Assembly (NCBI RefSeq): GCF_018326265.1
Contig: NZ_AP023360.1
Coordinates: 5,923,501-5,987,500 of the forward strand
Source: Catellatospora sp. IY07-71
GTDB lineage: Bacteria; Actinomycetota; Actinomycetes; Mycobacteriales; Micromonosporaceae
Length of the DNA stretch: 64,000 nucleotides
Direction of reading: 5' to 3'
The notes below the pieces were generated by a model, which ran no database searches, was not told where the DNA came from, and saw only the letters and a program-made list of their open reading frames with translations. Positions 21,008-36,108 of the stretch are shown in pieces. Each line of letters starts with the position of its first letter. The stretch's first letter is position 1. Position numbers and translations under genes: made by a program.

Positions 21008-21688
21008 CGCTGCTCCTTCGATCGTCTGTCTGTCCAGGACGGCTGAGGTCTCCGTCATCGAGGGCTACGACGGCGGTGCGGGACGCGGATGCGATGGGTG
21101 ATCTTCCCGACTGGCTGCATCCGCCAGTGCCCTGGCGGCCGTATCGCAGGAGGCTGCTTCGCGTGTCTCGCAAGCCGGGCCGACCGGCTGCGCTTTCCGG
21201 CCCGGCTCGCGCCCGATCCCGCCGCGTACGGCAGGCAGTTGCGGAGCGGGGCGTCACCACCGCCGACGTCGCGGCCATGCGGTCCTGCGACCGGCCACAG
21301 CCACGGCGAGGCCCCCGAAACGCCCGCTCGGCGGCCCCGCCGTGGCTTCCCAGATCAACGATCTCCAGTCGAGGTACGTCGATGGACCAAGGCTAGGCAC
21401 ATACCGGCTTCCTCGCAATGTTGCGTCGGAATCTGCGTCGTTATATCGTCTGCCCATCGAAGGCGTACCGCTGGTGAACCCATGAGCAGACTCCGGCGGC
21501 CGGAAACGAGTCTGCGGCGCGTCGCCCCTCGCCTGCCACGGTCGTGAACCGGGTGCGCCACTCGCAGCGGGTGGCCACTGCCGGTCGCCGGCGTGATCGC
21601 GACGCGGCCCAGCTCCGGGTGCATCCAGCGCGGCGAGGTTCGTCGTACGTGTCAGCGAAGGCGTGTGTGCCGGCCGGAGGGAGGCGGT
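21008..21688. other. 681-bp intergenic region, no supported gene
   Basis: This gap separates the divergent DUF4397-sortase and sigma/anti-sigma operons. Reading frames here show no codon bias or recognisable domain. The only structured element I see is the TCG direct-repeat site at 21421-21442. The lower GC around 21410-21460 would fit promoters. Confidence 0.5.
21421..21442 (+). promoter_or_regulatory. TCG-repeat operator, copy 1
   Basis: TTGCGTCG followed 12 bp later by a second TCG (GCGTCGTT). It is one of four copies sharing the pattern TTG-N-GTCG-N6-G-N2-TCG-N-T. It is 247 bp upstream of the sigma-factor start and about 410 bp from the DUF4397 start. Confidence 0.5.
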
Positions 21689-22333
21689 GTGAGTGCGGCA
21701 ACGGTCTTGCCGATCCCGTGGAAGGCGATGTCCCCGGTGAGACAGCAGCACGGGAGGACAGCCGTCGATGCCGACGAGCTGGCCGCCAGATTCGCCGGAG
21801 GCGATGACGACGCGTTGCGGGAGGCATACGACCACTGTGGCGCCGCGGTGTTCCACCTGGCGTCACGGCTGCTGCGCAGCCGCACCGACGCCGAGGACAT
21901 CACGCAGGCGGTCTTCGTGTCGGCGTGGCTGGCGCGGTCGACCTTCGACCCGCAACGTGGCGGCCTGCTCGGATGGCTGCTGGCCATCACCCGCCGCAAG
22001 GTGATCGACCTGGTGCGGGCCCAGCAACGCGCCGACCGTGTCGAGGAGGTGATCCGCCGGCAGCCCGAGCCGCCACCGGCGGCCTCCGCCGAACTGGTGA
22101 TCGAGCAGCTGGTGGTCGCCGACGAGCTGGCCAAGCTGCCCGCCGAGCAGCGCAGGGTGCTGGAGCTCGCGTTCTACGATGACCTCACCCACCAGCAGAT
22201 CTCCGAGACGACAGGCCTGGCACTGGGCACGGTGAAGAGCCACATACGGCGTGGCATGGCGGCCATCAAGCGGCGATGGGAGGTGGACGGTGCGGCATCT
22301 GGATTCCAGCCAGCTGGTTCTGCTGGCGTTTGA
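21689..22333 (+). CDS. ECF sigma factor (SigK-like)
   Basis: About 214 aa. Region 2 spans DALREAYDHCGAAVFHLASRL to WLLAITRRKVIDLVR, including DAEDITQAVFVSAW. Region 4 is LPAEQRRVLELAFYDDLTHQQISETTGLALGTVKSHIRRG. The GTG at 21689 has GGAGGGAGG just upstream; the ATG at 21728 is an alternative. Its 3' end overlaps the anti-sigma start by 44 bp. By analogy with SigK/RskA it should be held at the membrane and freed by proteolysis of its partner. Confidence 0.9.
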   Translation: MSAATVLPIPWKAMSPVRQQHGRTAVDADELAARFAGGDDDALREAYDHCGAAVFHLASRLLRSRTDAEDITQAVFVSAWLARSTFDPQRGGLLGWLLAITRRKVIDLVRAQQRADRVEEVIRRQPEPPPAASAELVIEQLVVADELAKLPAEQRRVLELAFYDDLTHQQISETTGLALGTVKSHIRRGMAAIKRRWEVDGAASGFQPAGSAGV

Positions 22334-23072
22334 GGATCTGTCGGAGCACCCCTCGGCAGCCGAGCACCTGGCCTCCTGCGACGCATGCCGTCACGAGGTC
22401 CTGCAGCTGCAGCGCCTGTCGACGGTGGTCGGCCAGACCCGGCAGCTGCGCGACCTGCCGGCCCCGCCGCCGCGCGTGTGGGAGGCGATCGTCGCGCAGA
22501 CCACGGTGGACACTTCCACCGCCGTCCCGGCGGCAGCCGTCCCGGCGAAGCCGGGCAGCGGACACGGTCCGCGCGGCCCGCTCCGCCCGGCAGACGGCCG
22601 CCCGCCCCGTGCCGTCACCGCCCGACCGTACGCGCGGCAGCGGCTGACCCGGATATCCGTCACCACCATGATCGTGTTGGCGGCGCTCGCCGGCGGGGCC
22701 GTGGCAGGCGTCCGGTGGAGCAGAACACCGCCGCCCCCGGCGCCGGCCGTGCTCGCGGCCGCCGAGCTGACCGCATACGGTGACACCCCCGCCACGGCAT
22801 CGGGCCAGGCACATGTCGTCGACGGCCACCGGCTCCGGCTTCACGTCGCCGGGCTGCCGCCCGTCGACGGCTACTACGAGGTGTGGCTGATCGACCCCGG
22901 CACCATGAGCATGTTCTCGATCGGCACGCTGGGCGCCGGTTCCGACGGCGACTTCAACCTGCCCGCCAACGCCGACCTGGGCACCTATCGCCTGGTCGAC
23001 GTGTCGGCCGAGCACTTCGACAACAACACCGCCCACTCCGGCGACAGCCTGCTGCGAGGTCTGCTCGGCTGA
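22290..23072 (+). CDS. RskA-type zinc anti-sigma factor
   Basis: A 260-aa membrane anti-sigma factor. The N-terminal cytosolic domain has the zinc motif HLASCDAC (HX3CX2C). One membrane helix (VTTMIVLAALAGGAVAGVRW, ~130-150) leads to an extracytoplasmic RskA domain (VVDGHRLRLHVAGLPPVDGYYEVWLIDP). The GTG start follows GGGAGG and lies inside the sigma gene, so the pair is coupled. It should sequester the sigma factor until cleaved. Confidence 0.9.
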   Translation: MRHLDSSQLVLLAFEDLSEHPSAAEHLASCDACRHEVLQLQRLSTVVGQTRQLRDLPAPPPRVWEAIVAQTTVDTSTAVPAAAVPAKPGSGHGPRGPLRPADGRPPRAVTARPYARQRLTRISVTTMIVLAALAGGAVAGVRWSRTPPPPAPAVLAAAELTAYGDTPATASGQAHVVDGHRLRLHVAGLPPVDGYYEVWLIDPGTMSMFSIGTLGAGSDGDFNLPANADLGTYRLVDVSAEHFDNNTAHSGDSLLRGLLG

Positions 23073-23165
23073 GACGGCCGCAGTGATGGCGGGCTCGCGG
23101 TGACGAGGTCCGACCGCCCCCATCCTTCCGGCCGTCCGCGCCGAACCACTGCTCACAGGGAGGTC

Positions 23166-23249
23166 ATGACGATGACTGTTCGAACAGCCGCCGTGGCGCC
23201 GTCCGGCGCTCGCGGCACCGGCGAAGCGGCCATGGGGTCCCAGCGGTGA
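23166..23249 (+). CDS. 27-residue upstream peptide
   Basis: A short frame with its own GGGAGG ribosome binding site, starting MTMTVRTAAVAP, whose stop overlaps the GTG of the next gene (GTGA at 23246-23249). The spacing and overlap suggest a translated coupling peptide rather than a functional protein. It resembles nothing known. Confidence 0.45.
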   Translation: MTMTVRTAAVAPSGARGTGEAAMGSQR

Positions 23250-23608
23250 AAGCGATCTCGATCGCCCTACCCGGTGGGCACCGCAGCGCGACGGTCGCAC
23301 GGGAGTTCATCGGGCTGCTGACCCGGTCCTGGCGGCTCGCCGACGGCGGCGGACTCGCGCTGCTGACCTCGGAACTGGTGAGCAATGCCGTGCTGCACGG
23401 CGGTGGAGCGGTGTCGCTGACCGTGATGCTTCGTGACGACCACGTGCGGGTCGAGATCAACGATCGCAGTGCTGGCATGCCGGCACCACGCCAACCCGAC
23501 GTCGACGGCGGTTTCGGATTGGGCATCGTCGACCGGCTCGCCCGGGCCTGGGGCGTGTCCGCCCTGCCTGACGGCAAGACGGTATGGGCCGAGTACCAGC
23601 TGCCGTGA
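23246..23608 (+). CDS. RsbW-like histidine-kinase-type ATPase
   Basis: A 120-aa stand-alone HATPase_c_2 protein, the anti-sigma/serine kinase type common in actinomycetes. The N box is SELVSNAVLHG, the G1 region VRVEINDRSAG and the G2 region GGFGLGIVDRLA, all intact. It probably binds or phosphorylates a sigma factor or an anti-sigma antagonist, but no STAS partner is adjacent. Translation is likely coupled to the 27-residue frame upstream. Confidence 0.85.
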   Translation: MKAISIALPGGHRSATVAREFIGLLTRSWRLADGGGLALLTSELVSNAVLHGGGAVSLTVMLRDDHVRVEINDRSAGMPAPRQPDVDGGFGLGIVDRLARAWGVSALPDGKTVWAEYQLP

Positions 23609-23611
23609 CAG

Positions 23612-24859
23612 TCATCCGAGCTTTCCCGCGAGGATGTCAGGGCTGACGTGCGGGGTGCGCACCGCCCGGTTGGCCCGGCGCCCGGCCCAGCGGGCCAGCC
23701 ATGGCGAGCGGCTGAGCAGGCGCAGCACGCCCGGCGGCCGTGGATCGCCGCACTGCAGGGCACGCCTGCTGCGGGCCTCGATCCGGCTCTGCTCCTGCTG
23801 CGCGGCATCCGTGATCGGCTTGCGGGCGTGTTGCACCGCGAGGCAGGCGGCGTCGACGTCCGCGCGGCTGCCCCGGGCCAGCGGCCCGGCGAGCAGGTTG
23901 GCCGCCTGCACCGCGTCGGCGAGTGCGTGGTTGATGCCGTTGCCCCCGACCGGCGAGATGACGTGCGCGGCGTCCCCGATGAGCAGCAGTCCGGGCACGG
24001 TCCAGCTCGCGACCTGCGTGATGCGGACGTCGAGCAGGGTCAGCTGGTTGACGTCGGTCAGCGCCGCCATCCGCTGCCGCAGCCACGGCATGTGCCGGTC
24101 GACGGCCTCCCGGATCGGCGCCACGCCGTCCTGCCGGGCCTGCGCGAACGAACCGGCGGCGATGCCGTAGCCGAGCTGCCAGCGCTGTCCCTGGTTCAGC
24201 GCGACCACGTAACGGCCCGGGAGGGCATACAGGTCCAGGCCGCTGCGCGGTGGGTCGGTGGCCGGATCGCGGGGCACGTCGAACCACAGCAGGTCCGATC
24301 CGACGCCGAGCTCGGTGGTCGCCAGGCCCGACAGCCGGCGGATCTTCGACGAGCGGCCGTCGGCCGCGACGACCAGACGGGCTCGCAGTTCGTGCTCGCG
24401 GCCGGTGCGGTCGGTGTAGGCCACACCGGTGACCCGGTCGCCCGTGTGCAGCAGGCGGTTGACGCGGGCGTTCATGCGAACCTGGAACGACGGGCGGGCC
24501 GCGGCCTCACCGATCAGGAACGTCAGGAACTCCGGCTGCGGCAGCAGTGCGAAGAAGCCGTAGTCGGCGCTGGCGTCGCGGAAGTCGCTCAGCACATAGT
24601 CTCGTTCGGCGGTGTGCCAGCAGAACGCCGTCGCGCGGGTGTGGGGCGTGTCCGCCAGCAGCCGCCGGGCGAGCCCCAGTTCGTCAAGCAGGTCCAGCGT
24701 GGCCGGACCGAGCGTGTCGCCACGGAACCGGCGGGCGAAGTCGGCGTGCGACTCGAGCACGATGACGGCACAGCCCGCTCGCGCGAGCAGGTAGCCCAGC
24801 ATCGCACCGGCCGGGCCACCCCCGACGATCACGCAGTCGGCGTCGTCTGTCGCGCCCAT
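23612..24859 (-). CDS. FAD-dependent monooxygenase (PHBH fold)
   Basis: A 415-aa flavoprotein hydroxylase. The Rossmann motif is VIVGGGPAGAMLGYLLARAG at the N terminus, the DG motif is VVAADGRSSKIRRLSG, and the FAD ribityl GD motif is LLIGDAAHVISPVGGNGINHALADA. It acts on an aromatic or other small substrate that cannot be inferred. The ATG at 24859 follows GGAGG. It converges on the ATPase gene with 3 bp between them. Confidence 0.88.
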   Translation of the reverse strand: MGATDDADCVIVGGGPAGAMLGYLLARAGCAVIVLESHADFARRFRGDTLGPATLDLLDELGLARRLLADTPHTRATAFCWHTAERDYVLSDFRDASADYGFFALLPQPEFLTFLIGEAAARPSFQVRMNARVNRLLHTGDRVTGVAYTDRTGREHELRARLVVAADGRSSKIRRLSGLATTELGVGSDLLWFDVPRDPATDPPRSGLDLYALPGRYVVALNQGQRWQLGYGIAAGSFAQARQDGVAPIREAVDRHMPWLRQRMAALTDVNQLTLLDVRITQVASWTVPGLLLIGDAAHVISPVGGNGINHALADAVQAANLLAGPLARGSRADVDAACLAVQHARKPITDAAQQEQSRIEARSRRALQCGDPRPPGVLRLLSRSPWLARWAGRRANRAVRTPHVSPDILAGKLG

Positions 24860-24897
24860 CCCCGCCTCCAGCTGAAATGCCGCAGGTCCGTCGTGGT

Positions 24898-25368
24898 TCA
24901 CCAGCCTGCGGTGCCCGGACCGCCCTTGAACGGCCCGACGATGTCGCCGGTGATCCATCCGCCGTAGAAGTCGCCCTCCTGGGGCCGGACCGGTTCACCG
25001 TCCAGCAGGCACTCGTCGAGCTTCGACGGATAGAACGCCACTGCGCCGGCCAGTTCTTCGTAACCGGCGGCCGGTGACTCGTACGACCAGGCGGCCTGCG
25101 GCACGACCGCCTGCCCGGCGACCAGGTCCCAGAACGTGGCGATCCCTTTGAACTCGCAGAACGAGCTGCGTCCCGAGAGCCGCAGCGGCAGGATCACCGC
25201 GGTGCGGGGCACGTAGTAGACCGGCGGATGGGAGGTCTCCAGGACTCTCAGCGCCTGCCGGGTGTCCACGACCACGAGTCCCTGGTGCCGGGCGGTGACG
25301 TGACGGTCGCTGCGCTCCCAGCGCGGCGGCCGTGGGTAGTCCCACACGCTTTCGGCCACGTCTGCCAT
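24898..25368 (-). CDS. DUF427 domain protein
   Basis: A 156-aa protein matching the DUF427 pattern: ARHQGLVVVDTRQALRVLETSHPPVYYVPR, then FCEFKGIATFWDL and WSYESPAAGYEELAGAVAFYP, ending in a short region rich in Gly/Trp. Function unknown. It lies 38 bp upstream of the monooxygenase on the same strand and is probably co-transcribed with it. Confidence 0.85.
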   Translation of the reverse strand: MADVAESVWDYPRPPRWERSDRHVTARHQGLVVVDTRQALRVLETSHPPVYYVPRTAVILPLRLSGRSSFCEFKGIATFWDLVAGQAVVPQAAWSYESPAAGYEELAGAVAFYPSKLDECLLDGEPVRPQEGDFYGGWITGDIVGPFKGGPGTAGW

Positions 25369-25412
25369 GGTAGGCGCCGCGCTCGGGGTCCCACGGCCGT
25401 CGCAGCCCGGGG

Positions 25413-25763
25413 TCATCGCGGTGCCGGCCCGTCCTGCGGGTGCGTCACCGGACCGGACCCGGGCCGAACCCAGACCTCGGGGGCCGCGGGAAGACCCGTC
25501 CGCACGGTTGCGACGCCCCCGAGCGGCATGTCCGGGGTGACGCGCCGGAGCAGCGGGCCGTCCAGGAGACCGTAGGCCGCCACCGCGTCCAGTGCTTTGG
25601 CGGCGTCCTTGGCCTTCTCACGGGTCTCCTCGTCACGGGCCGACGTCCAGATGCGGTAGCCGGCAGACTGCCATCGTGCGTTGTGCGAGATCCGGCCGGC
25701 GAGTTCCATGGAGCGCCCCGCGCACCGGCGGGACAGGTTGCTGAGCTTCTCCTCGATCCCCAT
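25413..25763 (-). CDS. hypothetical protein
   Basis: A 116-aa basic protein. The N-terminal half is helical (MGIEEKLSNLSRRCAGRSMELAG), slightly recalling CsbD-type stress proteins, and the C-terminal half is proline-rich and unstructured. The ATG at 25763 has GGAGG at good spacing. A copy of the TCG-repeat operator lies 90 bp upstream, so it may be in the same regulon as the MerR-B12 regulator. Confidence 0.65.
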   Translation of the reverse strand: MGIEEKLSNLSRRCAGRSMELAGRISHNARWQSAGYRIWTSARDEETREKAKDAAKALDAVAAYGLLDGPLLRRVTPDMPLGGVATVRTGLPAAPEVWVRPGSGPVTHPQDGPAPR

Positions 25764-25852
25764 CACGACCTCCGTAGGCAGGTGAGCCGACCATCTCGGC
25801 CCTGCTCTCATCGTCGTGTGCCGCGTCCGGCGCCGTCCGCCGAATCGAGAGT

Positions 25853-25874
25853 TTGCGTCGATTCAGGTGTCGAT
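25853..25874 (-). promoter_or_regulatory. TCG-repeat operator, copy 2
   Basis: TTGCGTCGATTC followed by GTGTCGATT, with the two TCG triplets exactly 12 bp apart. It sits in the 126-bp gap between the MerR-B12 gene and the hypothetical gene downstream of it, upstream of the latter. Confidence 0.55.
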
Positions 25875-25889
25875 TCGCTGCAGACCGGG

Positions 25890-26768
25890 TCACGCCGAAC
25901 GGGCGCGACCGATGACCGCCACCGCGAGGCGCAACGCCTCGGCCAGATCGGCGGGACAGCCGACCCCTTCCGGCAGCGGGCCGGGCCAACCCGGGCCGGC
26001 GGCGGCCACGAGAGCCGGCCGGGGACGGACCGCCAAGATCACCCTCAGATAGTCCGGGTCGCCGGTCACGGCCTGCTGCGACCAGACGAACACCGCGGCG
26101 GGCCCGGTGCGGCGGACCGCATGGGCCAGGCTCTCCGCGGGAACGCGGGCGCCGAGCATGCGCGTGCCGCAGCCCTGCTCGGCCAGCGCCGCGGCCAGCG
26201 CCTCGAGCGCCAGCGTGTGCTGCTCCTCCGCCGCGCAGGCCAGAACGGTCTTGACGGCTCCCGCGGCGAAGGGCCGCGGCACTCGCCAGAAGACCTCGAG
26301 CACGCACCGGGACAGCAGATGCTCGACCTCGATCATGTGCTGATCGCCCTCCTGCAGGCGGGACACCTCTCGCATCGCCGGGCAGATCAGGTTGTCCCAC
26401 GTGTAAACCACCCCGCGCCTGCGGACCGCCGCGAAGATCGTCGACAGCATGCTGGGCATGTCCAGCCGGACAGCCGCCATCACCAGGCCCCTGACCGCGG
26501 AATCCACGCCAGGCTGGTTCACGGAGGCCGCCGCGGGCGGTGGCGGCCCGGCCAGCGCGACGCGCGCCGCTGCCGCCGCCGGAACTCCCTCGGTCGTCAG
26601 CCGGCACATCACCTCCAGCCGGGCGACGTCGTCATCGGTGTAGCGGCGGTGACGGTGGGCTTCATGCCCGCTTGGGCCCAGCCCGTAGCGCTGATGCCAG
26701 CTGCGCAGGGTGGTGACGGCGATCCCCAGGTGCCGGGCGACGTCTCCGGCGGTGCGGTGCCGGTTCAC
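25890..26768 (-). CDS. MerR-family regulator with B12-binding-like domain
   Basis: A 292-aa LitR/CarH-type regulator. The MerR winged helix is at residues 1-70 (AGDVARHLGIAVTTLRSWHQRYGLGP, RHRRYTDDDVARL). A helical B12-binding-2-like bundle follows with E149-H150, matching the EH pair of CarH, then a Rossmann-like domain with H184 in EEQHTLALEAL where the cobalt ligand lies. The gating Trp of CarH is replaced by Gln (Q139), so light sensing is doubtful. It diverges from an idi-like gene, and light-dependent MerR-B12 proteins usually control carotenoid genes. Confidence 0.82.
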   Translation of the reverse strand: MNRHRTAGDVARHLGIAVTTLRSWHQRYGLGPSGHEAHRHRRYTDDDVARLEVMCRLTTEGVPAAAAARVALAGPPPPAAASVNQPGVDSAVRGLVMAAVRLDMPSMLSTIFAAVRRRGVVYTWDNLICPAMREVSRLQEGDQHMIEVEHLLSRCVLEVFWRVPRPFAAGAVKTVLACAAEEQHTLALEALAAALAEQGCGTRMLGARVPAESLAHAVRRTGPAAVFVWSQQAVTGDPDYLRVILAVRPRPALVAAAGPGWPGPLPEGVGCPADLAEALRLAVAVIGRARSA

Positions 26769-26860
26769 ATCGCGCGCTCCGGCAGCGGCCGGCTCAGGCC
26801 GGGCGCCGGAAACCCGTCAGTGCGATGGTGCATGGCTCCACCCTATGCGAGTTTCGCAAG

Positions 26861-26882
26861 TTGAGTCGATATCTGCATCGTT
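26861..26882 (-). promoter_or_regulatory. TCG-repeat operator, copy 3
   Basis: TTGAGTCGATATC followed by TGCATCGTT, TCG triplets 12 bp apart. It lies in the merR-idi intergenic region, 93 bp from the merR start, where an autoregulatory MerR operator is expected. Confidence 0.58.
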
Positions 26883-26997
26883 TTCGCCTCGAGTCTGGTC
26901 CGCTGATCGACGCAGCGGCTCGACGGCGCGCGACAGCCCTGGGTAATTTGAGAGTTGCCTCGCTACCTGACCTGGCCGTGACCGGAAGGTGGCAACA

Positions 26998-27537
26998 ATG
27001 GCCGATTTGCTGGTGGAGACCGTCGACGAGTTCGGCCTCGGCGGCGCGTCGGTGGGCGCAGGCCGAGCCCATGAGCCGCCGGGGCTGCTGCACAGGGCGA
27101 TGTCGCTGGTCGTGGTCGACGGGGCGGGATTCGTGCTGCTGCAGCGACGGGCGGCGGACAAGGCGACGTTCGCCTCGCGCTGGGATGTCTCGTGCAGCGG
27201 GCATCCACCGCCCGGACAGGACGCGGCGCGGACCGCGGTGGTGCGGGCGTACGAGGAGATCGGCCTGACCGCCGTCGTCGCCGAACCGGTGGGCTGCCTG
27301 CGGCGCCGGATGCGCGACCGGTCCTGCGGCCGGGTGGAGCACGTATGGCATCACCTGTTCCTGGCCGCGCTGGGGCGTCCGGCACAGGTCACGGTCGACC
27401 CCTCGGAGGTGGCGGACGTGCGCTGGGCCGAGATCGGCGACGCGCTGGCCGCGTCAGCCAGGACGCCGCGCGACTACACCCCATGGTTCGCCGGCACGCT
27501 CACCTCGGCGGTGGCCTCGGCGGTGCTGCTCAGTTGA
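26998..27537 (+). CDS. idi: isopentenyl-diphosphate isomerase-like Nudix protein
   Basis: A 179-aa Nudix-fold protein resembling type I IPP isomerase, which interconverts IPP and DMAPP for isoprenoids. It has LLHRAMSLVVVD, LLQRRAADKATF, the catalytic-Cys region WDVSCSGHPPPGQD, a Nudix-like AARTAVVRAYEEIGL, an acidic RVEHVWHH region and YTPWF. Some isomerase signatures are loose, so another Nudix hydrolase is possible. The ATG at 26998 has GGAAGG at good spacing. Divergence from a CarH-like regulator suggests a link to carotenoid supply. Confidence 0.68.
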   Translation: MADLLVETVDEFGLGGASVGAGRAHEPPGLLHRAMSLVVVDGAGFVLLQRRAADKATFASRWDVSCSGHPPPGQDAARTAVVRAYEEIGLTAVVAEPVGCLRRRMRDRSCGRVEHVWHHLFLAALGRPAQVTVDPSEVADVRWAEIGDALAASARTPRDYTPWFAGTLTSAVASAVLLS

Positions 27538-27573
27538 GGTGCCCCGATCCCGACAGGCAGGAAGCGGGGCACC
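27538..27573. terminator. bidirectional hairpin between idi and M20 gene
   Basis: GGTGCCCCG pairs with CGGGGCACC across an 18-nt loop, immediately after the idi stop and 7 bp before the stop of the convergent M20 gene. It can serve both directions. Confidence 0.6.
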
Positions 27574-27580
27574 GCACCCG

Positions 27581-28729
27581 TCAGCTGATCTCGTCGATCA
27601 GTCCGGCGAGCAGCGCCACCCGCGGGACCACCGAGCCGAGGTCGAGCCACTCGTCGGGGCCGTGGTCGCCACCGCCGACCGGGCCGAGCCCGTCGAGCAC
27701 CGGCGCGCCCGATGCGGCCAGCAGGTTGGCGTCGGCGCACCCGCCGGTGGCGGCGTGGGTGACGGTGAGCCCGAGTCCGGCTCCGACCTTTTCGGCCGCG
27801 CGCAGCAATGCCGCCGTGCCCGTTCCGCCCAGCCACGGTGGGGTCGGCGCGACGACGCGGACCGTCGCCGTCACGCCCGCGACCAGCGGGGTGCCGGCCA
27901 GCCGGGCGATGTCGGCCAGTGCCGCCTCGTAGGCGGCCGGTTCGGCCGCCCGCACGTCGACCACCAGCCGCGCCCGGTCGGCCACGACGTTCGGGCGGGT
28001 GCCGGCGTGCAGGACACCGACGTTGACGCCGTCGATGCCCTGCAGGGCGACGGTCAGGTGCGCGGCGGCCAGGGCGGCGTTGGCGCCGCGCTCGGGTTCG
28101 ATGCCGGCGTGGGCGGCCCGGCCGTGCAGGTCGATCTCGACGTCGGCGACGCCCTTGCGGGCCGAGACGAGGTCGCCGTTGTCGCGGGCGCACTCCAGGC
28201 ACAGGATCGCGTCGGCCTGCGCCGCCAGCTCGGCCAGCAGCGGCCTGCTCCCGACCGAGCCGATCTCCTCATCGGGGGTCGCGACCAGGACGATCTCGCC
28301 GTACCGGTCGGCGTCGAGCTGTGCGAGCACCTCGACGGCGGCCAGGCCCGCGAGCAGCCCGCCCTTGTCGTCGCACACGCCGGGCCCGTACGCCCGCGCG
28401 GTCGCCCCGTCGACGGTCAGCGGCCTGGCCGCGGCGGTGCCGGGCGGGAAGACGGTGTCCAGGTGGGCGGCGAGCAGGATCCGGCTGCCGCCCCGGCCGG
28501 CCTTCCGCGCGATCACCGCGTCGCCCAGTGCCGCCCCGTCGTCGTCGCTGACCGGCACGACGTCGACCCGTGTGCCCGCCTCGGCCGCGTACCCGGCGAA
28601 CCTGGCGGCGACCTTGCGCAGTCCATGCACCTGCCGTGAGCCGCAGTCGACCTCCACCAGCTCGGCGAGCCTTGCCAGGAACGCCGGGTAGCGGGCCTGG
28701 GCGGCGGCCCGCAGCGCCGCGGGGTTCAC
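27581..28729 (-). CDS. M20 family metallopeptidase
   Basis: A 382-aa zinc peptidase or deacylase of the M20 (ArgE/DapE/CPG2) family. Zinc ligands are seen in [10 protein letters not shown] (HxD), the bridging Asp in [10 protein letters not shown], Glu-Glu in TPDEEIGS, a further acidic [10 protein letters not shown], and a late His in [10 protein letters not shown]. The dimerisation-domain His is in [11 protein letters not shown]. No signal peptide, so cytosolic. The GTG start overlaps the ABC ATPase stop (GTGA), making it part of the transporter operon; it probably hydrolyses an imported dipeptide or acylated amino acid. Confidence 0.88.
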
Positions 28730-29487: not shown

Positions 29488-30347
29488 CGGACCGTCCCTC
29501 CCGCTGCGCGCTGGCCGCGGCCGAAGCGCCGTTCGACGAACCACTGCAGCACCGACAGGACGCTGACCAGCGCCAGGTACCAGATCGCGGCCACGGTCAG
29601 CAGTGGGATGACCTTGTAGTTCTGCGCGTAGACGGTCTGCACCGCGGTCATCAGGTCGCGTCCGGCGATCACGGACACCAGCGCGGTGGACTTGAGCATG
29701 GTGATGACCTCGTTGCCCATCGGCGGGGCGATGACCCGCATCGCCTGCGGCAGGACGATGCGGCGCATGGTCAGGCCGGGTTTCATGCCGAGCGCGTGGG
29801 CGGCCTCGGTCTGGCCGCTGTCGACCGACAGGATGCCGCCGCGCACGATCTCCGCGGCATAGGCCATCTCGTTGAGCGACAGTGCCAGCACGGCGGGCAC
29901 GATGCCGACCATCACCGCGTTGGTGGGCTGGTCGAACACGGCGATGTCGGTGAACGGCACGGTGAGCGTCAGCCGCGGCAGCAGCGCGCCGAGGAAGCCG
30001 AAGAACACGATCTGCACCAGCAGCGGCGTGCCGCGGAAGAGCCACACGAACGCGGCCGCGGACACGCGCAGGACCGGGTTGGCCGACAGCCGCATGACGG
30101 CCAGCAGGATCCCGCCGGCGGTGCCCAGCACCATCGCGATCACGGTCAGCAGCAGGGTGGTCTGCACGCCTTCGAGGACGAAGTCTTTGAACAGGTACTG
30201 GCCGATGGTGGCCGGTTCGAGGTTGGGGCTGCTGAGCAGTGCCGCCAGCACCTGGTAGGCGAGCAGGGCGACGGTGGCGGCGGCCAGCCAGCGGCCGTAG
30301 TGGCGTACGGGGACGGCTTTGATCGGCGGGTGGGGGTCGGTTGTCAT
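29484..30347 (-). CDS. polar amino-acid ABC transporter permease
   Basis: A 287-aa integral membrane protein of the HisM/GlnP family with a single permease type, so probably a homodimer. It has about six helices, including [23 protein letters not shown], and the cytoplasmic EAA loop [22 protein letters not shown] that contacts the ATPase. It lies 64 bp after the binding-protein gene, with a hairpin in the gap. Confidence 0.93.
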
Positions 30348-30372
30348 GGGCGCGGTTCCCTCGGGGTGGCGC

Positions 30373-30398
30373 GGGGCGGGCGCGCGGGCGCCCGCCCC
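30373..30398 (-). terminator. intra-operon hairpin between binding protein and permease
   Basis: A perfect 11-bp stem GGGGCGGGCGC / GCGCCCGCCCC with a GCGG loop. A hairpin here commonly stabilises or partly terminates the mRNA so that more binding protein than permease is made. Confidence 0.55.
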
Positions 30399-30411
30399 GT
30401 GGGGTGGCAGG

Positions 30412-31356
30412 TCAGTCGATGGCCCGGTCGATGGTCGCGGTGGCCAGGCCGATCTCCTTCTGCCCGTACTGGTCGAGGATCTTGGCGTAGGTGCCGTCGT
30501 CGATCAGCGACTGCACCGCGGCCTGGAACGCCTGGGCGAGGTCGGCGCGGGACTTGAGGAACCCGAAGGCGTTCGGGCTGGCCAGCCAGCCGTTCGGGTT
30601 GGCCGAGTCGGCGGCCAGCTGCACCTTGTCCTTGAGCTGCTGCTCGGTGTCGACGAGGTTGACCTTGGTGGCGGCGACGGCGTCGACGGTGCCGGCCAGC
30701 AGCGCCTGCACGGCCTGCGGGTTCTCCGGGTACTCCTTGACGGTGATGGCCTTGCCGGCGCAGCTGCTCTTGCTGTACTCGGCCAGGTGCTTGGCCTGGT
30801 TGCTGGCCTTCTGCACGGCGACGGTGCGCCCGCACAGATTCGTCACGTCGTTGATCGCGAGCGGGTTGCCCTTGGCGACCAGGAAGCCGGTGCCGGAGGC
30901 GCTGTAGTCGACGAAGGTGGCGACCTGCTGGCGCTCCTTCTTGTCGGTGATGCCGCCGGCGATGGCGTCGAACTTGCCGGCCTGCAGGCCGGGCACGAGG
31001 CCGTCGAAGGGCTGCTGGCTCCACTGGGTCTTCAGGCCGAGCCGGGCCGCGGCGGCGCTGAGCACGTCGTAGTCCAGGCCCTTGAACTCGCTGGTGTTGC
31101 CCTCGGTCTTGAAGTCGATGAACGGCTCGTAGGGGGCGTTGGTGGCGATGGTGATGACGCCCTTGTCGCGGAAGTCGGCGGGCAGCTTGGCGGCCACCTT
31201 CGCGTCGGTGGTGACGTCGCCGACGCCGGGCACGGCGAAGGTGACGGTGGCCGCCGCGCCGCTGTTGGCCGGGGCGGGGGTGTCGGTCGAGCCGCAGGCG
31301 GTCAGGAACGTGGCGGCCAGCGCGACGGCGGGCAGGGCGAAACGGTGCAGGCGCAT
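30412..31356 (-). CDS. amino-acid ABC transporter binding lipoprotein
   Basis: A 314-aa SBP_bac_3-type lipoprotein. The signal peptide ends in a lipobox FLTACGS (Cys near residue 21). The binding fold shows DKGVITIATNAPYEPFIDFK, FKGLDYDVLSAAAARLG, DAIAGGITDKKERQ and a DAVAATKVNLV hinge. It should deliver a polar or charged amino acid or dipeptide to the permease. First gene of the transporter operon, behind two GTTAC-type inverted repeats. Confidence 0.92.
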   Translation of the reverse strand: MRLHRFALPAVALAATFLTACGSTDTPAPANSGAAATVTFAVPGVGDVTTDAKVAAKLPADFRDKGVITIATNAPYEPFIDFKTEGNTSEFKGLDYDVLSAAAARLGLKTQWSQQPFDGLVPGLQAGKFDAIAGGITDKKERQQVATFVDYSASGTGFLVAKGNPLAINDVTNLCGRTVAVQKASNQAKHLAEYSKSSCAGKAITVKEYPENPQAVQALLAGTVDAVAATKVNLVDTEQQLKDKVQLAADSANPNGWLASPNAFGFLKSRADLAQAFQAAVQSLIDDGTYAKILDQYGQKEIGLATATIDRAID

Positions 31357-31393
31357 GGAGTCCTCCGGTGACTGAATCTCAGTACCAGGGGAA

Positions 31394-31438
31394 TGTAATA
31401 GACGTTACAGCGAATGTGAAGTTACGATTTTATGTAAC
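31394..31438 (-). promoter_or_regulatory. GTTAC/GTAAC inverted-repeat operators
   Basis: Two inverted repeats lie between the divergently arranged binding-protein promoter and the end of rpiR: TGTAA-N6-TTACA (31394-31409) and GTTAC-N8-GTAAC (31421-31438). The region is clearly AT-richer than its surroundings. The same half-sites recur at 33887-33945 between the two S51 genes, so a common repressor, probably the RpiR protein, is likely. Confidence 0.6.
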
Positions 31439-31445
31439 GCGCTCG

Positions 31446-32303
31446 CTAGAGGAGCCGGTACCGCTGCGCGGCCCCCTCGATCGCCGCGAGCCGCTCCCCC
31501 GCCGCCGCGCCCATCCGCGCGATCACACCGTCGATCAGGGTCTCCAGCACCGCCACGGTCGGCACGAAGCTGTCGTAGGCCGACGGCGAGTCGACCCGGC
31601 TGGGCAGCACCACGTCGGCCAGCGACGCGATCGGCGACAGCCACCGGTCCGTACACAGGATGATCTTCGCCTCCTGCTCCTTGGCCGCCTGCGCCAGCGC
31701 CAGGGTGGGCTGCTCGTAACGGCGGTAGTCGAACAGCACCAGCAGGTCCTTGCGGCCCAGGTCGGCCAGCAGGCCGGCGCGCTCCACCTGCCCGGCAGGC
31801 AGCAGGCGGCTGTTGCCCCGGATCTGCACCAGGTGCATGACCAGATAGTGCGCGAGCAGGCCGGAGAAGCGCCCGCCGTGCCCGGTCACCCGCAGCTGCG
31901 GGTCGGCCAGCAGCCGCACGGCCGCCTGCACCTCGCTTTCGGGCAGTTCGGCCAGCGTCGCCTCCACTGCCTGCGGCAGCACGCGGCGGGCCCGGTCCAG
32001 CGCCCCGCCGGGCGCGGTGGGCGGCTCGGCGGTGTACGCCGCCAGCGGCGAGGTGTCCCGCTCGGCGAGCTCGTCCCGCAGCGCCTTCTGGAACTCCGGG
32101 TAGCCGCGGAAGCCCAGCCGGTTGACGAAGCGCAGCACCGTCGGCCCGCTGACACCGGCGCGCTCGGCCAGCACCGCCACCGTCTCCAGTGCGGCCGTGG
32201 GATAGGCGGCCAGCAGCACCCGGGCCACCCGCCGCTCGGCGGGACTGCACTCGCCCAGCCGGGCGTGGATCATGCCGGCTACGCCGTGTTCGGCTACGGT
32301 CAT
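31446..32303 (-). CDS. MurR/RpiR-family transcriptional regulator
   Basis: A 285-aa regulator. The N-terminal HTH_6 domain shows SPAERRVARVLLAAYPTAALETVAVLAERAGVSGPTVLRFVNRLGF. The C-terminal SIS domain has RVTGHGGRFSGLLAHYL and LVLFDYRRYEQPTLALAQAAKEQEAKIILCTD. SIS domains usually bind sugar phosphates, though RpiR proteins beside peptidase/ABC genes also exist. The ATG at 32303 follows GGAGG. It lies between the transporter operon and the S51 genes and probably controls both. Confidence 0.88.
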   Translation of the reverse strand: MTVAEHGVAGMIHARLGECSPAERRVARVLLAAYPTAALETVAVLAERAGVSGPTVLRFVNRLGFRGYPEFQKALRDELAERDTSPLAAYTAEPPTAPGGALDRARRVLPQAVEATLAELPESEVQAAVRLLADPQLRVTGHGGRFSGLLAHYLVMHLVQIRGNSRLLPAGQVERAGLLADLGRKDLLVLFDYRRYEQPTLALAQAAKEQEAKIILCTDRWLSPIASLADVVLPSRVDSPSAYDSFVPTVAVLETLIDGVIARMGAAAGERLAAIEGAAQRYRLL

Positions 32304-32348
32304 GGGACACCTCCGCGGCACAGCGTAGCCACGAACACGCGACGGGCC

Positions 32349-32378
32349 GGTGCCCGCCCGGCGCGCCGGGCGGGCACC
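32349..32378 (-). terminator. hairpin terminator after first S51 gene
   Basis: A nearly loopless palindrome, GGTGCCCGCCCGGC and its complement separated by GC, just past the stop at 32384. Also lies upstream of rpiR. Confidence 0.6.
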
Positions 32379-32383
32379 GGGTG

Positions 32384-33802
32384 TCACTTCGCGACGGTGC
32401 AGGAGTAGGTCGCCGATCCGGAGCCGGAGTACGCCTCGACCTCGACGTAGACCGTGGCGCTGCCGGATGCGGTGCGGGTGTACGTCAGCGACTCGTCGGC
32501 CCCCGCGCCGTCGTTGACCGACCGGACCAGGGTGCTGCCGGACGAGTTCAGCAGGTAGAGGTCGGCGTCGTAGGCCGACGGGACGGCGCAGTTCACCGTG
32601 ATCGTGCGGCCGCTGTCCAGGGTGAGGGCGAAGTAGTCGCGGTCGCTGCTGCTGCCCATGGCGCCGGTGACGGTGGCAGGGTAGGTGAGCGAGACGATGC
32701 TGTTGGCGGTGCCGCGCGAGTCGTTGGGCTCCACTTCGGTGTAGGTCGAGCCGCCCCCGCCGCCGGGCGGCGGGCAGGAGGTGAGCGGCGTGCCGCTGTA
32801 CAGGTTGGCGTCGGCCACCCCGTTGGTGACGCTGCGCAGGTAGTAGCCGCAGGTGGGCCGGTTGGCGAAGTCGTAGGTCTGGCCGCTGGTCAGCTTCCAG
32901 ATCTTGAAGTTGGAGAAGCTGAGCGGCTGGCCGGAGACCGCCCGTTCCGGCTGGTGGTCGCCGAGCACGACGTACGCGCTGGGGCCGGTCAGGGTCGCCT
33001 TGCCGGCCGCGTCGACGAACAGGGAGGCGCCCTCCTCCACGCCGACGCCCCAGGCGGCGCCGCCACTGGTCAGGCCGTCCTTGATGGATCGGGCCACGAA
33101 CGCCATGAGCCTGCCCATCCGGTCGCGGGCGACGAAGTGCGAGTCGTTGATCGTGTTCGCGTAGTTCGGCCAGGTGAACATGCCGGTGGTGAAGCTGATG
33201 TACCTGTCGTACGGGTCGGCCAGCGCCTCCGAGGACAGGACGCTGCCGGAGCAGGCGTCGTAGACGACGGAGCTGTTGATGTGGTGCCCGGCGCTGCCGC
33301 CGCCGACACCGCCGCCCTTGGCCACCACCGACTGCACCGACGCCCGCAGCGAGGTGCCCTTCCAGTTGGCGTAGCGGCACTGGTCGCCGCCGGCGAAGTA
33401 GACGAACTCGGCGTTACGGACGTCGGTGTTGACCTGGCTGTTGTTGCCGTCGTTGGCAGCCGTCAGCGTCAGCGTGGTGCACGAGTTGACGCCGGTGATC
33501 GCCATGATGGTGTCGCACTCGGGGGTCTTGCTGCCCGACGTCGGCGCCGAGCCGGCCAGCACTGCCACGTCGATGCTGCCGCTGCCGCCGCGGATGGCGT
33601 CGACGGCCTTGGTCATGGTGGCGGTGACCACCGCCCCGGATCCGTTGAACGTGTAGGCCGGGCCGGACCAGCCGGTGCGGCTGACGTCGGTGCTGCTGCC
33701 CTGCCGCACGCGGGTGACCGCGGCCTCGGCCGGCGCGGCGATCAGGGTGCTCGCCAGTATCGCCACGGCGGCAGCCGCGGCCAGGCGGGGGAAGGGGGAC
33801 AT
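32384..33802 (-). CDS. exported cyanophycinase-like (S51) peptidase with PPC domain
   Basis: A 472-aa secreted protein. A signal peptide (residues 1-28, ...APAEAA) is followed by an S51/cyanophycinase fold: VYFAGGDQCRY (the GGDQ of cyanophycinases, ~138-141) and the nucleophile elbow GGGSAGHH with S170. After a Pro/Gly linker, residues ~375-472 form a PPC (bacterial pre-peptidase C-terminal) beta domain, EVEPNDSRGTANSI to the end. Cyanophycinases cut multi-arginyl-polyaspartate to beta-Asp-Arg. It diverges from a second S51 gene across an operator-rich region. Polymer specificity is inferred. Confidence 0.82.
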   Translation of the reverse strand: MSPFPRLAAAAAVAILASTLIAAPAEAAVTRVRQGSSTDVSRTGWSGPAYTFNGSGAVVTATMTKAVDAIRGGSGSIDVAVLAGSAPTSGSKTPECDTIMAITGVNSCTTLTLTAANDGNNSQVNTDVRNAEFVYFAGGDQCRYANWKGTSLRASVQSVVAKGGGVGGGSAGHHINSSVVYDACSGSVLSSEALADPYDRYISFTTGMFTWPNYANTINDSHFVARDRMGRLMAFVARSIKDGLTSGGAAWGVGVEEGASLFVDAAGKATLTGPSAYVVLGDHQPERAVSGQPLSFSNFKIWKLTSGQTYDFANRPTCGYYLRSVTNGVADANLYSGTPLTSCPPPGGGGGSTYTEVEPNDSRGTANSIVSLTYPATVTGAMGSSSDRDYFALTLDSGRTITVNCAVPSAYDADLYLLNSSGSTLVRSVNDGAGADESLTYTRTASGSATVYVEVEAYSGSGSATYSCTVAK

Positions 33803-33847
33803 GGTTCCTCCTGCATAAGTGGGCCACCACGCTGTGATGTATCGCAC

Positions 33848-33945
33848 ATTACATCTCATGCAGACAGCTGTACATCTGTATCTTCTGTTACTTACAAGCT
33901 CGTAACATCTATTACATCTAGACTTCTCATCCAGTCGCTTGTAAC
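33848..33945. promoter_or_regulatory. AT-rich divergent promoter with GTTAC/GTAAC and ACATCT repeats
   Basis: In the 261-bp gap between the two S51 genes, GTTAC (33887) and GTAAC (33902, 33941) half-sites repeat the motif found before the ABC binding protein, with four copies of ACATCT (33851, 33872, 33905, 33914), two of them inside ATTACATCT. The stretch is far more AT-rich than the window average. Confidence 0.55.
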
Positions 33946-34063
33946 GTGCTGTCGCGTCGCCACGAGGCGAACCGTCACCCAAGACCGGCTCCGCCCGCCG
34001 TCGGAAACCCCCAAGTTCCCACCACGCTGCGGCGGGCGGAGCCTCCCCCTACGGGAGGCAGCC

Positions 34064-35266
34064 ATGACCCAACGCCGCACCCTGCTGACCGGCGCCCTCG
34101 GCGCCGCCGCCCTCACCGCTCTCACACCGGCCGCGCCCGCCTCCGCCCGCGGCGGCCGGCGCGGCCCGCTCGTCCTCGTCGGCGGTTCACTGTCCGACGG
34201 CAACACCGAGATCTACGGCGAGATCGTCCGCCGCGCGGGAGGCGCCCGCGCCCGCATCGGCGTGCTCACCGCCGCGTCGATCCCGCCCAGCCAGGACCCC
34301 GACGCGGGCTCCCCCGACGCCGTCAACAGCGTCACCAACGGCCGCTACTACGCCGACCTGCTGCGCGCCCACGGCGCGGGCGAAGCCGTCTGGATCCCGG
34401 TCGACCTGGACCGCATCGCCGCCGCCGACGACCCCGCCGTAGCCGCGCTCGCCGCGAGCTGCACCGGGTTCTTCTTCGGCGGCGGCGACCAGTTCCGCTA
34501 CCTCACCACCATGGTCAGGGGTCAGGCGCACGCCGACAGCCTGCTGCTGGCCGCCATCCGCCGACGGCATGCCGCCGGCGCGGTCGTCGCCGGCTCCAGT
34601 GCCGGAGCCCAGATCCAGCAGGGGCCCGACATGGTCACCGGCGGCGAGAGCTACAACGCGCTGCGCGACGGCTCGCACCCCGGCTACTTCGACGACCCCG
34701 ACACCAGCGGCTACTGGCCGGCGGGCGGGTTCGGCCTGCTCACCTCCGGGCTGATAGACACGCACTTCTCCGCGTACGGCAGGCTCGGCCGTGCCGTCGA
34801 GCTGGCCGTCACGACCGGCAACCGCCGCGTGTACGGGCTCGACGCGAACACCGCGCTGCTGGTCACGGACCCCGGCGGCCGCGAGGAGCTGGGCCGGGTG
34901 CTCGGCACCGGCGGCGTCAACGTCCTCGATCTGCGTGACGGTGTGCGCTGGAGTCACCTCAGCGCCGGCTTCACCTACCGGCCCCGCAGCTGGCAGGCCG
35001 ACGCGCCGTCCGGGCTGCGCCCGCTGGGGCACGCCGCGGCGGACGAGGTGACCGGCAGTGAGGACGTGTTCGGCGACGACGTCGCCATCGGACTCGCCCT
35101 GCGGCTGGCGGCCTCCCGCACGCGCAGCGTCACCAGCCACACCCGGCAGAGCGACCCGCGCTTCGCGGTCACCTTCACCAAGACGCCGCGGTTCAGCGCA
35201 TACACCGGCGACGGCCGCACCGCGGCCGCGTTCACGGACCTGGCCGTCCACATCCGGCAGGCCTGA
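34064..35266 (+). CDS. exported cyanophycinase-like (S51) peptidase
   Basis: A 400-aa secreted serine peptidase of the cyanophycinase family. The N terminus QRRTLLTGALGAAALTALTPAAPASA has a twin-arginine and may be a Tat signal. The fold shows LVLVGGSLSDGNTEIY, FFFGGGDQFRYL (GGDQ, ~140-143) and the elbow AGSSAGAQIQQ with S179 as nucleophile. It lacks the PPC domain of its neighbour. A GGGAGG site precedes the ATG; the long in-frame extension upstream is antisense to the neighbouring gene and is not coding. Confidence 0.88.
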   Translation: MTQRRTLLTGALGAAALTALTPAAPASARGGRRGPLVLVGGSLSDGNTEIYGEIVRRAGGARARIGVLTAASIPPSQDPDAGSPDAVNSVTNGRYYADLLRAHGAGEAVWIPVDLDRIAAADDPAVAALAASCTGFFFGGGDQFRYLTTMVRGQAHADSLLLAAIRRRHAAGAVVAGSSAGAQIQQGPDMVTGGESYNALRDGSHPGYFDDPDTSGYWPAGGFGLLTSGLIDTHFSAYGRLGRAVELAVTTGNRRVYGLDANTALLVTDPGGREELGRVLGTGGVNVLDLRDGVRWSHLSAGFTYRPRSWQADAPSGLRPLGHAAADEVTGSEDVFGDDVAIGLALRLAASRTRSVTSHTRQSDPRFAVTFTKTPRFSAYTGDGRTAAAFTDLAVHIRQA

Positions 35267-35270
35267 GGTG

Positions 35271-35305
35271 GCTGAGGGCCCGGCGCGACCCGCCGGGCCC
35301 TCAGC
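35271..35305 (+). terminator. hairpin terminator after second S51 gene
   Basis: A perfect 14-bp stem GCTGAGGGCCCGGC / GCCGGGCCCTCAGC with a 7-nt loop, starting 5 bp after the stop. Confidence 0.75.
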
Positions 35306-35382
35306 CGCCGCCCACCCTTCATGGAGTACGGCTCTTCATCGAACAGTCGGCGGGATCCCACCGTGATCCTGATGCCTCCCGG

Positions 35383-35796
35383 TCAGGTCTCCGGCCCTCG
35401 CCTGCGGCCGGGAAGTCCCGGGCGCGCTCCGAACCGTGGCCTGAATCTGCTGACGCGCAGAAATGCCGTCCGTGGCAGCATCGCCAACCCGGCCGCGCTC
35501 CACCACACGTGCCCGCGCCCGCCGTGTTGGTAGAACCTCGCCAGCCACGTGCCGTCCGCTCGGCGTACCTCGATCCGGCCGGGCGCGAGGCGGGCGGCCG
35601 CAGTCCGCAGCGCGGCGAGCCGCGGCAGGTGCGCGAACGCGAGCGCGGCGTCGTCGAAGGTGACGACGACGGGGGCGCCGGCCACCGCCCGTACCGTGCC
35701 GGTGGTGCTGCGTCCCCCGGCCGACACCCGGATGTCCAGGGAACCCGACCACCGTGCCGGGTTCCCCGTAGCCGCCGGTCTACCGGGCTGCGCCAT
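35383..35796 (-). CDS. hypothetical protein
   Basis: A 137-aa protein with a beta-rich central region (LDIRVSAGGRSTTGTVRAVAGAPVVVTFDDAALAFAHLPRL, then GRIEVRRADGTWLARFYQHG) and a basic C terminus. It resembles no family I know. The ATG at 35796 overlaps the end of the 72-aa gene by 17 bp; its ribosome binding site is weak. Confidence 0.5.
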   Translation of the reverse strand: MAQPGRPAATGNPARWSGSLDIRVSAGGRSTTGTVRAVAGAPVVVTFDDAALAFAHLPRLAALRTAAARLAPGRIEVRRADGTWLARFYQHGGRGHVWWSAAGLAMLPRTAFLRVSRFRPRFGARPGLPGRRRGPET

Positions 35797-35998
35797 TGCC
35801 GCCGTCAGTGGTGGTGATCTCCAGGGTTCCGTTGAGCACCCATGTCGCCCTGGGCGAGTCTGCTCCGGTCCGGCGCGGCACCTGCACCTCCATGCCATGG
35901 AAGCGATACGAGATGCTGGCGTGCCTGCCGGTGAGGAAATCCCACATCTCCTTGCCGAAGTCGGCGAACTGGACGTCGTCTCGAACAGTGGTGGTCAC
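35780..35998 (-). CDS. small hypothetical protein
   Basis: A 72-aa protein (VQFADFGKEMWDFLTGRHASI ... EVQVPRRTGADSPRATWVLNGTLEI). No family recognised. The GTG at 35998 is preceded by GGGGAG and overlaps the stop of a 16-codon upstream frame. It is transcribed from a promoter region containing copy 4 of the TCG-repeat operator. Confidence 0.6.
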   Translation of the reverse strand: MTTTVRDDVQFADFGKEMWDFLTGRHASISYRFHGMEVQVPRRTGADSPRATWVLNGTLEITTTDGGNGAAR

Positions 35999-36045
35999 AG
36001 CGCCACTCCCCTTCGCACTCGGTTGAACCAGGCTGTCTGCTTCAT
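35995..36045 (-). CDS. 16-residue leader peptide
   Basis: MKQTAWFNRVRRGVAL, with its own AGGAG upstream and a stop that overlaps the next start as GTGA. It parallels the 27-residue frame before the RsbW-like gene. It is probably a translational-coupling leader. Confidence 0.4.
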   Translation of the reverse strand: MKQTAWFNRVRRGVAL

Positions 36046-36086
36046 CCTCGCCGCTCCTGGTCCGGGACGAGAGTCGTACCGGATAG

Positions 36087-36108
36087 TTGCGTCGATTCGC
36101 GCATCGAT
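36087..36108 (-). promoter_or_regulatory. TCG-repeat operator, copy 4
   Basis: TTGCGTCGATTC followed by GCATCGAT, TCG triplets 12 bp apart. It is 42 bp upstream of the leader-peptide ATG and the closest to the consensus with copy 2. Confidence 0.55.

Follow-up and report, generated by a model that had tools for sequence, protein, structure and literature searches.

Which protein acts at a 22-bp direct-repeat motif that recurs beside a gene for a MerR-type regulator with B12-binding domains in Catellatospora sp. IY07-71 (family Micromonosporaceae)? The motif, TTGNGTCGN6GNNTCGNT, was noticed in a preliminary description of a 64,000-nucleotide stretch of the genome (NZ_AP023360.1, positions 5,923,501 to 5,987,500 of the forward strand; hereafter the window), which took it for the mark of a regulon. 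Our reading, to which we give a probability of roughly 0.78, is that the motif is the operator of the adjacent CarH/LitR-type regulator (LitR1, encoded by litR1), which represses the promoters of a photoprotection regulon.

The exact pattern was refound at each of its four places in the window (21421, 25853, 26861 and 36087), always on the forward strand and with 0 mismatches, and the 12-bp distance between its TCG triplets was reconfirmed. Dinucleotide shuffles of the window gave a mean of 0.04 exact sites and never reached four, which bears out the original observation of a repeated motif beside the MerR-B12 gene. When up to two mismatches were allowed, the window held 11 matches against 7.3 expected, so that only the exact pattern exceeds chance there. 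A genome-wide search, as had been suggested, found six exact matches in the single 8.6-Mb contig and none for the pattern read backwards. The two matches beyond the window lie at a PAP2-superfamily gene (L001) and, 1.8 Mb away from litR1, in the gap separating crtE, which encodes a polyprenyl synthase, from crtB, which encodes a squalene/phytoene synthase (L006; both families were checked). Because this last site falls between crtE and crtB, the motif is tied to carotenoid genes.

In the family, the site takes the form of two 12-bp direct repeats, TTGCGTCGATTNNTGMGTCGAT, with the half-site TGMGTCGAT; the opposite strand reads TCGACGCA. The loose pattern matched in 150 of 200 Micromonosporaceae genomes, but its control also matched in many, and because of this background the family counts use the sharper, recurring form TTGMGTCGATTNNTGMRTCGAT, which at up to two mismatches was found in 153 of the 200 genomes, against 0 of 200 for the reversed pattern. 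At up to three mismatches, the sharper pattern matched 11 places in the genome of Catellatospora sp. IY07-71 and its control none. Eight of these places are the crtE/crtB gap, 36087, 25853, 26861, the gap between a second regulator gene, litR2, and a photolyase gene, a hydrolase gene beside that photolyase, the PAP2 gene and a place upstream of a fasciclin-domain gene. The other three may be chance hits: two of them (4883164 and 7219082) overlap called genes, and the third (7738798) is without a clear target. Site 21421 is four mismatches off the sharper consensus.

The placement of the site was followed at 80 litR loci, the best 80 of 186 relatives retrieved by searching a collection of named genomes with eight aligned LitR proteins; all 80 bear genus names that we take to belong to the Micromonosporaceae. 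The site was found within the fetched stretch at 77 of the 80 loci, whereas none of the 21 control patterns (one reversed, 20 permuted) matched at any of the 80. The site is therefore conserved near orthologous merR genes, and a lack of such conservation was one outcome that the preliminary description had regarded as fatal to its proposal. The nearest genes, assigned with 16 query proteins, were crtB and crtE for 56 of the 77 sites, crtB and crtI for 14, photolyase and litR for six, and litR and an amine oxidase for one. Two of the three loci without a site (L129 and L145) stop inside crtI and leave the region uncovered, and at the third (L171) no match occurs in the gap between litR and crtB. 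Aligned, the 70 crt sites agree at 91-100% at positions 1-11 and 14-21, and at 73% at position 22. In other genomes of the Catellatospora group the litR orthologue comes directly after crtI, with the adjoining site between crtE and crtB, and several other genera have the gene order crtB, site, crtE, crtI, idi, litR; the window retains the litR-idi pair but has lost the crt linkage. Near the crt cluster of several Catellatospora-group genomes, dienelactone hydrolase and TspO genes also diverge from a three-mismatch site (L067, 18113-19281).

Presence of the site was also compared with presence of LitR (E <= 1e-10) in the 199 family genomes besides that of Catellatospora sp. IY07-71. Both were present in 148, LitR only in 4, the site only in 4 and neither in 43; the Fisher p-value of 3e-34 overstates the evidence, because the genomes are related by descent and a single genus (g12) gives many of the double absences.

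By domain order, LitR1 belongs to the CarH/LitR family: as in CarH, a MerR helix-turn-helix domain (Pfam MerR_1, 1.3e-13, 51.3 bits) is followed by a helical B12-binding_2 domain (18.8 bits, below the cut-off of 23) and a Rossmann B12-binding domain (32.4 bits, cut-off 32.1). LitR1 matched the PDB sequence of CarH at 1.1e-7, and its AlphaFold model (predicted local distance difference test score 90) has its best fold matches in the CarH structures 5c8f, 5c8d and 5c8e; against the NCBIfam CarH model it scored 41.5 bits, the cut-off being 400. Photocobilin-like sensing was considered and rejected: structures of that kind do occur in the list of fold matches, but nothing points to a bilin domain. 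Of the motif of the lower axial histidine, D/ExHx2G/P, H184 and E/D182 are each present in 30 of 30 proteins, and position 187 is P in 28 of 30 but A in the window protein. The EH of the Wx9EH motif is invariant (30/30), and the tryptophan is found at none of 110 family LitR loci (two overlapping genome sets), with H, Y, Q, A or F in its place; a profile alignment places W131 of CarH opposite this H/Y/Q column. The light signature of CarH-type proteins, as given in the accessible part of its source, consists of GxxW, EH, GxxH and GxxxP (PMC11796333). LitR1 has EH and GxxxP (G206, P210), lacks GxxW, and has the histidine of GxxH with E181 in place of the glycine. Because this signature is incomplete, our confidence in light and B12 as the signal was lowered, and we only lean toward it.

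It is possible, if in our judgement somewhat doubtful, that LitR binds the motif and yet is no B12 photoreceptor, its repression being relieved, as with CarA, a tryptophan-free CarH relative from Myxococcus, by another signal or an antirepressor. The replaced tryptophan and the unmet GxxW and GxxH elements would fit such a regulator, and CarA itself retains EH and the B12 motif without the tryptophan, according to the accessible part of PMC9304148; on the other hand, the invariance of EH and of the lower-ligand histidine suggests that cobalamin binding is still selected, and the targets are light-protection genes.

That LitR is the protein that binds the site is very probable from the way in which the two vary. 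The recognition helix reads WHQRY at 107 of the 110 family loci. Among 27 LitR loci outside the family, WHQRY occurs in two (G298 and G309), both of which are without the tryptophan and carry the 12-bp site next to a gene resembling crtE. The other 25 have WDRRY, WERRY or WARRY, with tryptophan at the column in 23 and beside it in two (L228 and L230), and four of five Streptomyces-like loci have the same half-site before litR, repeated at 11-bp spacing. Across these sequences, the recognition helix, the presence of the tryptophan and the repeat pitch appear to covary. A LitR with the tryptophan retained was also seen in actinobacterial genomes of only 1.3-1.5 Mb (family f26, L232-L240). The second regulator gene, litR2 (C1:7413882-7414837; L078 7886-8838), is 54% identical to litR1 and faces a photolyase gene with the site between them, a pair that is found in other genomes of the genus as well, and the two paralogues seem to share one operator type. 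Both litR1 and litR2 thus carry the site, as targets would if another regulator bound the motif and LitR were merely one of its targets. We consider this improbable: gains and losses of the site go with those of LitR (148/4/4/43), the WHQRY helix goes with the 12-bp site even outside the family (2/2), a WDRRY LitR stands behind the 11-bp version in Streptomyces-like genomes, and no other common regulator turned up at the loci, where no systematic search for one was made.

The geometry of the site resembles that of a repressor-bound promoter. Pairs of TGCGTCG 8-32 bp apart (95 in 71 genomes) stand at exactly 12 bp in 37 cases, against 9 cases for the next commonest spacing, with control matches in many of these genomes. 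A TAnnnT hexamer lies 7-14 nt, mostly 9-11, from the operator edge toward crtE or crtI at 69 of the 70 crt sites, a count for which no background was computed; this placement would make the -35 region fall within the proximal repeat. The predicted arrangement has direct repeats in tandem across the target promoter, as in CarH operators, and is probably that of a repressor covering the -35 region, as for CarH. At litR1 itself, TAGGGT lies 15 nt off the edge of site 26861, and the proximal repeat is expected to overlap the -35 region of litR1. A different explanation, that the motif is the -35/-10 promoter of a dedicated sigma factor (SigB-type, or the extracytoplasmic function (ECF) sigma factor of the window), is highly improbable. 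One site does precede the ECF gene, and group-3 sigma genes stand behind sites at eight loci, but near-identical direct repeats 12 bp apart are too close for -35 and -10 elements, the TAnnnT hexamer falls outside the motif at 69 of the 70 crt sites, and ECF orthologues occur in 3 of the 10 other genomes of the genus, whereas the site occurs in all 10. Chance or composition, which might account for the loose pattern (not above chance in the window at two mismatches, and matched by its control in many family genomes), is refuted by the shuffles and by the reversed and permuted patterns (0 in 200 genomes; 0 in 80 loci), the exact and sharpened patterns being far above all controls.

Taking the observed site together with its conservation, its placement at carotenoid genes and its co-occurrence with LitR, we propose that at target promoters the two 12-bp direct repeats would overlap the -35 region and that bound LitR would keep RNA polymerase off. 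Release, most simply on illumination if LitR holds adenosylcobalamin, would then turn the targets on. These would be the carotenoid genes, the photolyase gene, the idi-like gene, litR itself, the genes for a 116-amino-acid (aa) protein, a DUF427 protein and a flavin adenine dinucleotide (FAD)-dependent enzyme, the small-gene unit at 36 kb and the gene for the PAP2 protein.

Several points weigh against this proposal. Its support is sequence-based. Since LitR and site share common ancestry, the two-by-two table is no test of independent events, and the two occur apart in eight genomes, four with only the site and four with only a LitR match. Outside the family, 13 of 197 genomes of the class have the site, most of them without shown proximity to LitR, and the control matches in five. 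The tryptophan of Wx9EH is missing at all 110 family LitR loci, and two of the four light-signature elements in the accessible part of PMC11796333 are unmet. The TAnnnT count has no background control, and published CarH operators consist of 11-bp repeats, compared with 12 bp here. Two further points concern individual targets: the best homologue of the 116-aa gene is without a site in 3 of 10 genomes, as are eight further tested copies, and site 21421 is absent from three orthologous gaps (L263-L265), even at five mismatches.

The features of the window, and the sigma genes found behind the site in relatives, are collected in Table 1.

Table 1. Sites and genes of the window, by target, and sigma genes behind the site in relatives
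Feature	Position	Strand	Basis or remark
Site between litR1 (-) and idi-like gene (+)	26861..26882	+	TCG units at 12, 12 and 11 bp, read from the sequence
litR1, MerR-type regulator with B12-binding domains, CarH/LitR-like	25890..26768	-	Pfam, PDB, AlphaFold model
idi-like Nudix gene, divergent from litR1	26989..27537	+	NUDIX 3.7e-16
Site upstream of the 116-aa gene operon	25853..25874	+	Exact match
116-aa protein, no Pfam family	25413..25763	-	Pfam search
DUF427 protein	24898..25416	-	Pfam NTP_transf_9 7e-28
FAD-dependent monooxygenase-like protein	23612..24958	-	Pfam FAD_binding_3 9.9e-54
Site upstream of the small-gene unit	36087..36108	+	Exact match
72-aa protein, no Pfam family	35780..35998	-	Pfam search
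Second small protein, no Pfam family	35383..35898	-	True start probably near 35796
Site between DUF4397 gene (-) and ECF sigma gene (+), weakest of the four	21421..21442	+	Exact match
ECF sigma factor	21593..22333	+	Pfam sigma70 r2/r4; true start probably near 21691
DUF4397 protein, other side of site 21421	20177..21058	-	Pfam DUF4397 1.8e-29
Group-3 (SigB/F-like) sigma genes behind the site	L021, L022, L178, L182, L194, L197, L199, L203		L178 passes the SigB/SigF/SigG cut-off

Three of the sites had been placed within 130 bp upstream of minus-strand genes, and the distances to the starts of litR1, the 116-aa gene and the 72-aa gene are indeed 92, 89 and 88 bases. Site 26861 also faces the divergent idi-like Nudix gene, which the preliminary description did not mention and which scored 110.5 bits against the NCBIfam model of isopentenyl diphosphate isomerase, under the cut-off of 127. 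The DUF427 gene and the FAD-dependent monooxygenase-like gene probably share the transcription unit of the 116-aa gene. Homologues of the latter occur in all 10 other genomes of the genus, and the best copy has a site (up to three mismatches) 83-103 bases upstream in 7 of the 10, a second copy having one in one more genome; 20 of the 31 matches were tested. The 72-aa gene has homologues in 2 of the 10 genomes, both with a site 82-96 bases upstream and both with a DUF427 gene across the site; in the window, too, a DUF427 gene follows the 116-aa gene. DUF427 genes flank sites at four loci in relatives (L191, L199, L267 and L275), a 47%-identical homologue of the FAD-dependent monooxygenase-like protein adjoins a site in another genome (G086, L008), and the PAP2 site recurs at three loci (L211, L268 and L270).

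We would like to note that the fourth site, which does stand before the sigma factor as described, is unproven as a LitR target, and the ECF sigma gene is a weak one. ECF orthologues were found in 3 of the 10 other genomes of the genus, with no site near them. What support is left for 21421 comes from a site 90 bases upstream of a DUF4397 gene in another genus (G061, L276) and from the similarity of the ECF protein to a litR-linked sigma factor: in a one-way search with a litR-divergent sigma factor from a Streptomyces-like locus, it was the best of 28 matches in its own genome (46%, 1.4e-40; next 8.1e-21). The DUF4397 gene follows in tandem with a sortase gene (19485-21058), and at two loci in relatives (L018 and L027) the site stands at DUF4142 genes, with sortase-like genes next. 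A gene for a HATPase-type anti-sigma-like protein (23246-23608) adjoins the ECF sigma gene and its RskA-type anti-sigma gene.

Among the matches listed at up to two mismatches in relatives, 42 sites away from crt genes were fetched and tested. Forty of them fall between genes, and 38 have a start codon pointing away at a distance of no more than 300 bp, in stretches of which a simple gene caller called 77% coding; many copies in coding regions, the other outcome held to speak against a regulon, were thus not found at these sites. Among the same matches, the site stands upstream of sigma-70 genes (regions 2, 3 and 4) at eight loci, which may connect light with the general stress response. Other genes behind the listed sites encode a photolyase-related protein, SRPBCC-type proteins, MMPL transporters, FAD oxidoreductases, DUF4142 proteins, TspO and dienelactone hydrolase. 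One row (L080, 9094-14370) consists of litR, the site, an amine oxidase gene, a DUF1365 gene and a cyclopropane-synthase-like gene, and resembles the UfaM light cluster of Pseudomonas.

The undescribed regulon of the preliminary description therefore stands as a regulon, and a larger one than had been seen; its ECF member is weak, and "undescribed" holds for the open-access library that was searched, in which we found no report of LitR operators from Micromonosporaceae. Carotenoids are touched on in an Actinoplanes thesis that is cited in the accessible part of PMC11767292. The analysis provides LitR-type regulation in this antibiotic-producing family with a precise candidate operator and a list of targets, and it ties DUF427, the 116-aa and 72-aa proteins, DUF4142, MMPL and PAP2 proteins to a probable light response. 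It also offers a natural comparison of 11-bp with 12-bp CarH operators and of Trp-containing with Trp-free cobalamin pockets, and the co-varying helix and pitch would make a DNA-recognition code testable. More speculatively, the WHQRY LitR proteins may form a separate CarH/LitR class, with a new helix, a 12-bp pitch and a Trp-free pocket. Such proteins would detect light through a changed chemistry of B12 or through another signal, and in Micromonosporaceae they would control a wide photoprotection regulon, with SigB/F-type sigma factors, photolyases and several gene families of no known function among its members. If so, the 12-bp pitch would add about 50 degrees of twist between repeats beyond the full turn, implying a different oligomer on DNA.

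Among known systems, the class II LitR proteins PplR1 and PmlR2 of Pseudomonas are LitR relatives that control photolyase, the furan fatty-acid synthase UfaM and other light genes through half-site repeats (PMC9758184), a system with which the L080 gene row can be compared. According to the accessible part of that source, they differ in their site, T(G/A)TACA-N12-TGTA(C/T)A, and in having no B12 Rossmann domain. The operator of CarA of Myxococcus xanthus also differs from the site found here. In Streptomyces, LitR adjoins a divergent ECF sigma gene (checked in the Streptomyces-like loci L225 and L230), and the half-site TGCRTCG[TA]T precedes litR in four of the five such loci; there, by the accessible part of PMC12705666, LitR activates litS and the LitS sigma factor reads crtE. 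The repeat is 11 bp in that system. Here crtE/crtB has the site itself and would need no sigma relay, and 4 kb separate litR1 from the ECF gene of the window, from which it does not diverge. CarH of Thermus thermophilus and Bacillus megaterium (class I LitR) has the same MerR-type DNA-binding domain with helical and Rossmann B12 domains, the same direct-repeat operators over carotenoid-gene promoters and the same autoregulatory placement. The preliminary description had likened the spacing to that of CarH/LitR operators; the direct repeats agree, but in the accessible published accounts CarH operators have three or four tandem repeats at 11 bp and a TnnACA core, compared with two conserved repeats at 12 bp here, whose reverse-strand core, TCGAC(G), fits TnnAC only. 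CarH further has the helix WERRY rather than WHQRY, and the Wx9EH tryptophan that is lost here. The system is best filed as a variant of CarH/LitR regulation that is new in its pitch, its helix and its pocket.

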